Below, one piece after another: positions 41,863-44,167 of a stretch of 64,000 bases of DNA. The notes under the pieces were generated by a model. That model was not told the origin of the DNA. It ran no database searches and was given only the letters and a program-made list of their open reading frames with translations. Source of the stretch: an uncultured Holophagaceae bacterium (GTDB taxonomy: Bacteria > Acidobacteriota > Holophagae > Holophagales > Holophagaceae); assembly GCA_903937385.1 (NCBI GenBank), contig CAIZZF010000030.1:62001-126000 (forward strand), given 5' to 3'. A program made the translations under genes and the position numbers. Each line of letters opens with the position of its first letter. Positions within the stretch are counted from its first letter, which is position 1.

Positions 41863-43772
41863 GCGGCCCCCTCGGGAGCGACGGGAGGGGTGCCATCCAT
41901 AGGCAGCGCCAGGCAGAAGGTCGTGCCTCCGCCCGGCCGGTCCTGCGCCTGGATGGTGCCTCCGTGGGCCTGCATGATGGCCTTGCAGATGGCCAGCCCC
42001 AGGCCTACGCCGCCCTCGCCGGCGCCGGGCAGCCGGAAAAACTTGTCGAAGATCCGCTCCCGGAAGGCCTCGGGTATGCCGGGACCGCGATCCGCGACTT
42101 CCACGTGCAGCCAGGCGGGCTCACTCCAGGCCCGCAGGCTCACGGCCTCGCCCGGCGCGTGGCGCTGGGCGTTGGCCAGCAGGTTGAGGAGCACCTGCTC
42201 CAGCAGGGCCGCGTCGAAGGGAGCCAGGGCCAGCTGCTCCGGCAGGTCCACCTCCACGGGCAGGGCCCCAAGGCGGCGCTCCAGGCGGCCCAGGGCCGAG
42301 CCCAGGACTTCCTCCAGGGGCTGCCACTCCTTCTGCACCTGCACCGCGCCGCTCTCCAGCCGGGTGAGGTCCAGCAGGTTCCCCAGCAGGTGGGCCAGGC
42401 GCTCGCTCTCCTCCTGGATCATGGCCAGCAGGTCGCGGCGGGTGGCCTCCGGCACCTCGCCCGGCAGCAGCAGGCTGCTGGCCGCGCCGTGGATGGCGGC
42501 CAGCGGGGTCCGCAGGTCGTGGCCGATGGCTCCGAGCAGGGTGCTGCGCATGCGCTCAGTCTCGCTCTGCACCTGGGCGCGCCGGGCCTCCTCCAGCCAG
42601 CGCAGGCGCTCCAGGGCCAGGGCGATCTGGACGGCGAAGGCCTTCAGCAGCTCCCAGGTCCGGGGCGGCAGGCCCTGGACGGCCTCAGTGAGGATGCGGA
42701 GGACACCCTCGCTGCGGTCGGTACCCGTCAGTGAGAGGCAGGTGGCGTCCCCCACGGGCAGCGGCTCGAGGGGATCTCCCAGGCGCTCGCCCTCGGCCAG
42801 CCGGGCGAGCAGCTCCGGCGGAGAGGGCAGCTCCGTGATGGCCAGCGGGCCCGGCAGTACCGCCCAGCCTTCGCCCTCGGGGAACAGCAGCCAGGCCTGG
42901 GCCTTGAAGACGCGCCGGATGTGCTCGGCGGCGGTCTGGGCGATCTCCTCGCGGGTGAGGCTGCGTGCCAGGGCCCGGCCCAGCAGGTAGAGAGAGGCCG
43001 CGTGCAGCTCCCGGCGCTTCACGACCTGGGCCTGCTGCCGGAGCCGGCGCAGGAGGCCGACCACGACCTGGGCCGCCAACAGCATCAGCAGGAAGAAGAG
43101 CAGGTTCGGCCAGTGGTTCGCGGCCAGCTGGAAGCGCGGGGTCTCCAGCAGGAAGTTGTAGAGCAGCACGCTCATGACTGCGGAGAGCACACCCAGGCGG
43201 GCGCCCCAGCGGTGGCCGATGAAGATCACACCCAGCAGGTAGACGGGCAGGACCAGGGAGAGGCTGCCCTCGCGTGGCACCAGCCAGGCCAGGCCCGTGG
43301 CGGCGGCCAGCACCAGCAGGGCGCCCACCATGGCGCTGAAGTCGATGCTGCCGCCATCCTGGGTGGAGAGCTCGTGCCGGTCTTCGAGCACCACGAGCTC
43401 GGTGTCGAGGCCCCGCCGCTGCAGCTCGTCCGCCGTCGAGTGTCCCAGCCGCGCCCAGGGCCAGCGGTCCCGGGAGCGGCCCAGCACCAGGGCCTGCGCC
43501 CGGTTCCGGCGGCAGAGCTCCGCGAGGCCCTGGGCGAGGGTGGGCGCCTCCACCTGCTGCAGGTCAGCCCCCAGCCTCTGGGCCTCCTGCTGCCAGACCT
43601 GGATCTGCTCGGCGTCCTCGGCGGCGGTGCCGGGACCCCGGTCCACGAAGGCCGCGATCCAGGGCGCCGAGCGCTCGCGCGCCATCAGGAAACCCGCCTG
43701 GATGAGGCGCAGCGCATGGGCCTCCGAGCCGAGGGCCACAAGGATGGGGCGGGTGCCGGAGGGCGTTTCCAT
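41859..43772 (-). CDS. kdpD: KdpD-like sensor kinase lacking the N-terminal KdpD domain
   Basis: A 637-aa membrane kinase. Starting at ATG 43772 it opens with a USP-like domain (PILVALGSEAHALRLIQAGFLMARE ... RRNRAQALVLGRSRD), then a four-helix DUF4118 membrane domain (about 140-245; FSAMVGALLVLAAATGLAWL, SLVLPVYLLGVIFIGHRWGARLGVLSAV), a GAF-like domain, and the kinase core GAIGHDLRTPLAAIHG (His418), DRGPGIP and GGVGLGLAI. The roughly 250-residue Walker-A-containing KdpD domain that begins full-length KdpD (about 890 aa) is absent. The Shine-Dalgarno is weak, and a palindromic element lies 17 bp upstream, so truncation by insertion is possible, though such short forms also occur naturally. Confidence 0.85.
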   Translation of the reverse strand: METPSGTRPILVALGSEAHALRLIQAGFLMARERSAPWIAAFVDRGPGTAAEDAEQIQVWQQEAQRLGADLQQVEAPTLAQGLAELCRRNRAQALVLGRSRDRWPWARLGHSTADELQRRGLDTELVVLEDRHELSTQDGGSIDFSAMVGALLVLAAATGLAWLVPREGSLSLVLPVYLLGVIFIGHRWGARLGVLSAVMSVLLYNFLLETPRFQLAANHWPNLLFFLLMLLAAQVVVGLLRRLRQQAQVVKRRELHAASLYLLGRALARSLTREEIAQTAAEHIRRVFKAQAWLLFPEGEGWAVLPGPLAITELPSPPELLARLAEGERLGDPLEPLPVGDATCLSLTGTDRSEGVLRILTEAVQGLPPRTWELLKAFAVQIALALERLRWLEEARRAQVQSETERMRSTLLGAIGHDLRTPLAAIHGAASSLLLPGEVPEATRRDLLAMIQEESERLAHLLGNLLDLTRLESGAVQVQKEWQPLEEVLGSALGRLERRLGALPVEVDLPEQLALAPFDAALLEQVLLNLLANAQRHAPGEAVSLRAWSEPAWLHVEVADRGPGIPEAFRERIFDKFFRLPGAGEGGVGLGLAICKAIMQAHGGTIQAQDRPGGGTTFCLALPMDGTPPVAPEGAA

Positions 43773-43788
43773 GAAGGGTCCAGAGTTA

Positions 43789-44056
43789 GAGTGCCTAACA
43801 AAACCCCACGGAGCCGCGCGAGGGGTGCCGGGCGAGCGAGGCAAGGAAGGCGAGTCGAAGCGTAGCAGGGACTACGGGAGACGAGCCTGACGAGGCCTCG
43901 GGAAGCCCGCCACCCCACGCCCGGAGGGAGGAAGCCAGGCAGGCGCCCCGCGGTGTCAGGTCCCTGGAACGATGTCTCGCATCGCCCTGCGGGCCCTTCC
44001 TTGCGGTGCATCCTGCCTGGCTTCCTCGCGGCACCGCGGGTTGTTGTTAGGCACTC
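43789..44056. mobile_element. 268-bp palindromic element with attC-like ends
   Basis: It begins GAGTGCCTAACAAAACCCC and ends with TTGTTGTTAGGCACTC, an inverted repeat whose outer 13 bases match perfectly. GCCTAAC (43793-43799) and GTTAGGC (44046-44052) equal the usual outer core sites of integron attC sites. An inner 16-bp perfect inverted repeat (GAGGAAGCCAGGCAGG at 43928-43943, complement at 44012-44027) and a CGATG/CATCG hairpin lie inside. There is no ORF of its own. It fills most of the gap between the divergent kdpD-like and amt genes. At 268 bp it is longer than known attC sites, so it may be a MITE instead. Confidence 0.6.
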
Positions 44057-44167
44057 CAAAGGCCGCGCATAAAAAGCGCATAAAAAGTCCGGGGGGCGGC
44101 CCCGGATCACCCCCACAGTTCTGCATACTTCCACCCGGGAAGCTATTCACGATTCGGAGGTAGCCTG

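Follow-up and report, generated by a model that had tools for sequence, protein, structure and literature searches.

A long nested palindrome next to amt as a probable MITE-like element of Geothrix

Short elements that form hairpins and are dispersed through bacterial genomes have been described in several groups. Elements of the IS1031 group of the IS5 family favour TNA targets and generate a 3-bp repeat, and the MITEs of this group have no coding capacity, terminal repeats starting with GA, and the same 3-bp TNA duplication (PMC12016507). ERIC, Correia/NEMIS, RUP, and YPAL are likewise short, dispersed, hairpin-forming, and limited to a genus, and most of them duplicate their target (PMC2229807). 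The element described here, located in a window of 64,000 nucleotides (the whole stretch of DNA that was analysed) from an uncultured member of the Holophagaceae, shares these properties. However, it differs from the IS1031-group MITEs in being almost wholly a nested palindrome, with no autonomous element of matching ends among the matches listed, and from ERIC and its like in its TNA rather than TA target, its high GC content, its modular sizes, and its excess at stop codons. A third comparison is with the 124-bp attC sites of Geothrix integrons, which also form hairpins and carry the same outer 7-bp boxes, GCCTAAC / GTTAGGC; in contrast to these sites, the element has neither R-L spacer, extrahelical base, cassette array, nor match to an attC model, and it does have target duplications.

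The palindrome between the kinase gene and amt

A first-pass annotation had reported a nested palindrome with outer repeats, a perfect 16-bp inner repeat, and a further central hairpin, and every one of these parts was recovered in its place. The palindrome (43789-44056, 268 bp) is real by both its repeat coordinates and its folding relative to shuffles. Its outer repeat reads GAGTGCCTAACAA / TTGTTAGGCACTC, such that the left terminal inverted repeat (43789-43801, plus strand) and the right one (44044-44056, minus strand) both give GAGTGCCTAACAA. The arms of the inner repeat lie at 43928-43943 and 44012-44027 (both given on the plus strand), and extra hairpins are present within the element. 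On the left, the element is flanked by TTA (43786-43788), presumed from the direct TNA repeats of the family to be one copy of the target; on the right lies CAA (44057-44059), and the target duplication of this copy (TTA/CAA) is imperfect or mutated. Folding, which the annotation had proposed as a check, gave -87.3 kcal/mol for the 268 bases as single-stranded DNA versus -60.4 (sd 3.6) for shuffles (z = -7.5), and 0 of 200 shuffles folded as well. With up to one mismatch allowed, an 11-bp core of the end motif occurs in the 64-kb window just at the two ends of the element, and the 13-bp end has four matches in the 3.7-Mb genome, which are free of mismatches and together make up two elements; a reversed control pattern of the 13-bp end had no match in that genome.

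The neighbouring kinase gene starts on the minus strand at an ATG (43770-43772) that is 16 bp from the element, rather than the 17 bp first given. It encodes a histidine kinase with DUF4118, GAF, HisKA, and HATPase domains, and the Pfam KdpD N-terminal domain is absent from it, as had been remarked. However, the start and N terminus are conserved in relatives without the element, and consequently the domain make-up of the kinase was not caused by the insertion. The missing domain is ancestral and unrelated to the palindrome, on which the remark has no bearing. In the same kinase-amt interval, a tandem GCATAAAAA-NN-GCRTAAAAA motif (44067-44086) is unique in the window and kept in 8/8 aligned relatives; it is possibly a candidate regulatory site for amt.

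A dispersed family with a TNA target

Copies of the element were found in all 24 other Geothrix (Holophagaceae, Acidobacteriota) genomes searched and in 0/16 genomes searched from other genera in the class Holophagae. The nearest relative of the window copy (96%) lies in a genome of the same genus (G023), and for all 73 exact matches to a 19-bp end in GTDB-based contigs the record title names Geothrix, Holophagaceae, or Acidobacteria. Because the closest copy and all 73 matches point there, we regard the host of the window as a Geothrix species. Its own genome (3.68 Mb) contains two copies besides the full one: a mini copy of 50 bp on contig 1, flanked by a perfect TTA/TTA repeat, and, on contig 4, a divergent copy of 119 bp. 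Thus, the genome-wide search for the ends and the full element that the annotation had recommended did reveal further copies, both in this genome and in relatives. Pairing of ends on named contigs gave sizes of 48-80 bp (including the mini forms of 48-61 bp), 117 bp, 198-230 bp, 266-270 bp (the main form), and 310-469 bp (long forms, which contain additional hairpin modules in those copies that were read), with no end pair of insertion-sequence length among the pairs listed. A plasmid collection yielded no match to the element, and a single 19-bp match in viral contigs, in an unrelated region, was judged to be due to chance. Matches to GCGTGCCTAACA near contig ends resemble what we take to be the 5' region of 16S rRNA.

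In eight relatives the same kinase-amt junction is present with the element absent, that is, as an empty site. Family-wide, 84 copies with flanks, representing 78 independent sites, were available for flank statistics. Identical trinucleotides in direct orientation flank 32 of the 84 copies, 31 of them TNA, whereas 2000 shuffles gave a mean of 13.1 and a maximum of 24; identical trinucleotides in inverted orientation were seen only twice. The 31 intact duplications mostly read Y-TNA-R (YTNAR). A perfect TNA duplication is absent in the other 53 of the 84, suggesting that most copies are old or altered. The element is a discrete insertion, dispersed, and present only in Geothrix among the genomes searched. 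It has the terminal inverted repeats of a MITE, carries no gene, and across the family, although not in the imperfect window copy, is associated with a target duplication of fixed length; TNA target and 3-bp duplication are both as in the IS1031 group. The palindrome is very probably a non-autonomous, MITE-like transposable element of Geothrix that consists nearly entirely of nested inverted repeats.

In two cases (L095:1153-1420 / L106:1142-1408 and L210:6135-6540 / L079:2295-2564), copies from different species share an insertion site but point in opposite directions. Either inversion in place or more than one independent insertion at a single stop codon could account for these pairs.

Paired changes in the arms and position at stop codons

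Changes in the arms were counted on a tree of 60 copies, chosen for ends starting with GAG, for which the first three pairs are uninformative. Within the outer stem, 52 double changes kept Watson-Crick pairing versus 43 changes that were one-sided, and transversions made up 54 of the 106 double changes over the whole plus-strand fold. Paired cells in the outer stem numbered 1032, compared to a mean of 911 and a maximum of 925 when the 3' letters were shuffled. For base pairs that the plus-strand and minus-strand folds have in common, mismatches of the G-T and A-C kinds were similar in number (27 and 22), which argues that pairing is kept at the level of DNA. An apparent excess of G-T with the plus-strand fold (70:33) was an artefact of choosing the fold on one strand, and it reverses with the minus-strand fold (GT:AC 36:56). 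Template switching between inverted-repeat arms homogenises the arms and inverts spacers (PMC8604942), and a role for it in maintaining RNA hairpins has been put forward (PMC8794818). The paired, strand-symmetric changes seen here fit template switching of DNA rather than an RNA function.

Genes were called with a codon-usage model for which the window served as training data. On these calls, 20 of the 31 copies with intact duplications overlapped a stop codon, displaced from it by no more than one base, and one lay inside a gene. The overlap expected from a control matched for the exact 5-mer, which takes in some loci of other genera and some around the elements, was 2.4, or ~3.7 without loci that lack a gene call. 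The excess also holds against the remaining intergenic sites close to the 3' ends of genes (2 observed versus ~5 expected). Orthologues were compared at one site, where the position of the gene end differs among relatives by no more than a few codons. Two genomes have the element at this site, directly after TAA or TGA, whereas a third (L306; G006:C1, ~564700) has TAA-GAGTGCC-TACTTC there, apparently the remnant of a deleted element.

The excess at stop codons reflects either targeting or the survival of insertions. A bolder and still doubtful hypothesis is that the element seeks out stop codons in their own right, over and above YTNAR. By duplicating the stop triplet it would leave the host protein as it was, which would amount to a built-in safe-site strategy, and template switching during replication would keep the arms perfect.

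Other readings of the palindrome and its mobilization

The annotation had left open whether the palindrome was an oversized attC-like site or a MITE using the same end sequence. In favour of an attC site, or the remnant of a cassette, that IntI would recombine in folded form, the outer boxes are identical to those of attC, and integron integrases do occur in Geothrix together with attC arrays that have the same boxes: integrases above the family cut-off are present in 12 of the 27 genomes examined, all 12 of them Geothrix. The suggested search for intI was thus productive in the genus, but the window's own genome has none over the cut-off. Furthermore, a covariance model built from 20 Geothrix integron sites, which assigns 127-153 bits to most array members, gave at most 6.7 bits in the 2 kb around the element, and at most 5.9 for stretches within it, and it matched none of the copies at 15 family loci significantly. 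In genuine Geothrix attC sites the fold leaves a spacer unpaired and one base extrahelical, whereas the stem of the element, like that of its mini copies, is continuous. In addition, the conserved GTT/AAC core, although present in the window copy, has been lost in others; in some, GTT is replaced by GTA with pairing kept (GAGTGCCTTACAA/TTGTAAGGCACTC), and other core-less copies have GAGCTCATAAC, GAGTGCCTAAAA, or GAGCTCATAACA at their ends. Finally, the palindrome has inserted alone and with direct 3-bp target duplications. Consequently, the resemblance to attC is limited to seven letters at each end and is a matter of coincidence or convergence. The attC half of the proposal is refuted, an origin by IntI being extremely improbable, and the MITE half is upheld by the dispersed copies, empty sites, and TNA duplications.

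The same duplications bear on the idea of a REP/RAYT-type element moved in single-stranded form by a hairpin-recognising Y1 (IS200/IS605-like) transposase. Such an element would be palindromic, mostly extragenic, present in many copies per genome, and conserved in structure above sequence, as this one is; however, the REP/RAYT type is defined as lacking a target duplication, and Y1 transposition is not known to make one, so that this origin is very unlikely. It is also very unlikely that the family is primarily a structured RNA (a terminator, an mRNA stabiliser, or a small RNA) selected at gene 3' ends and dispersed only secondarily. The strong covariation of the arms and the location at or adjoining stop codons would be expected of such an RNA, but the near equality of A-C and G-T mismatches favours neither strand, copies have no evident bias in orientation to the gene (18 same, 14 opposite), Rfam has no match to the element, and most sites, 78 of 84 being independent, are not common between genomes.

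Several of the Geothrix integrases (loci L267-L278) are adjoined by arrays, many at contig ends, in which the 124-bp attC sites are very uniform, and attC arrays are also present in the window's own genome (C3:39030-41164, C4:7695-8836, and C1:4830-5865).

Taken together, these results have led to a model in which the MITE-like element is moved in trans by an IS1031-type DDE transposase (IS5 family), which would cut at the GAG... ends and join them to a TNA target. Many of the surviving insertions lie on stop codons, where the duplicated TNA preserves the stop of the host gene. Template switching between the arms at the DNA level would then keep the palindrome near perfect and may invert its interior, and deletions and added hairpins would give rise to the mini and long forms, respectively. 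That the mobilising enzyme is IS1031-like is about an even bet, given the two features that suggest it, the target duplication and the GAG ends. No autonomous relative with the same terminal repeats was among the matches listed in the genomes searched. In profile searches, genes for the IS5/IS4 transposases of PF01609, PF13340, and PF13586 were few in Geothrix and absent from the window's genome, and at the loci inspected their ends did not match, so the transposase with matching termini that the annotation had sought was not among them. In one Geothrix genome (G020; L292, L298, and L302), an insertion sequence with PF13586 gave seven matches; the copies that were compared are ~870 bp long, and their ends resemble GGGCCTGTTTTCAAAGTC and adjoin CTA. 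This multicopy element was rejected as a partner, its ends being GGG(C/T)(C/G)TGTTTTCAAAGTC or near, unlike those of the palindromic family.

The findings remove the false lead of a giant attC site and define a family of mobile elements in Geothrix, a metal-reducing genus. With paired changes that are about equal for the two strands in dozens of copies, the family is a ready-made data set for asking how bacterial genomes keep long palindromes perfect. If the excess at stop codons proves to be targeting rather than survival, it would be a clean case of a transposable element that lands without damage to genes.
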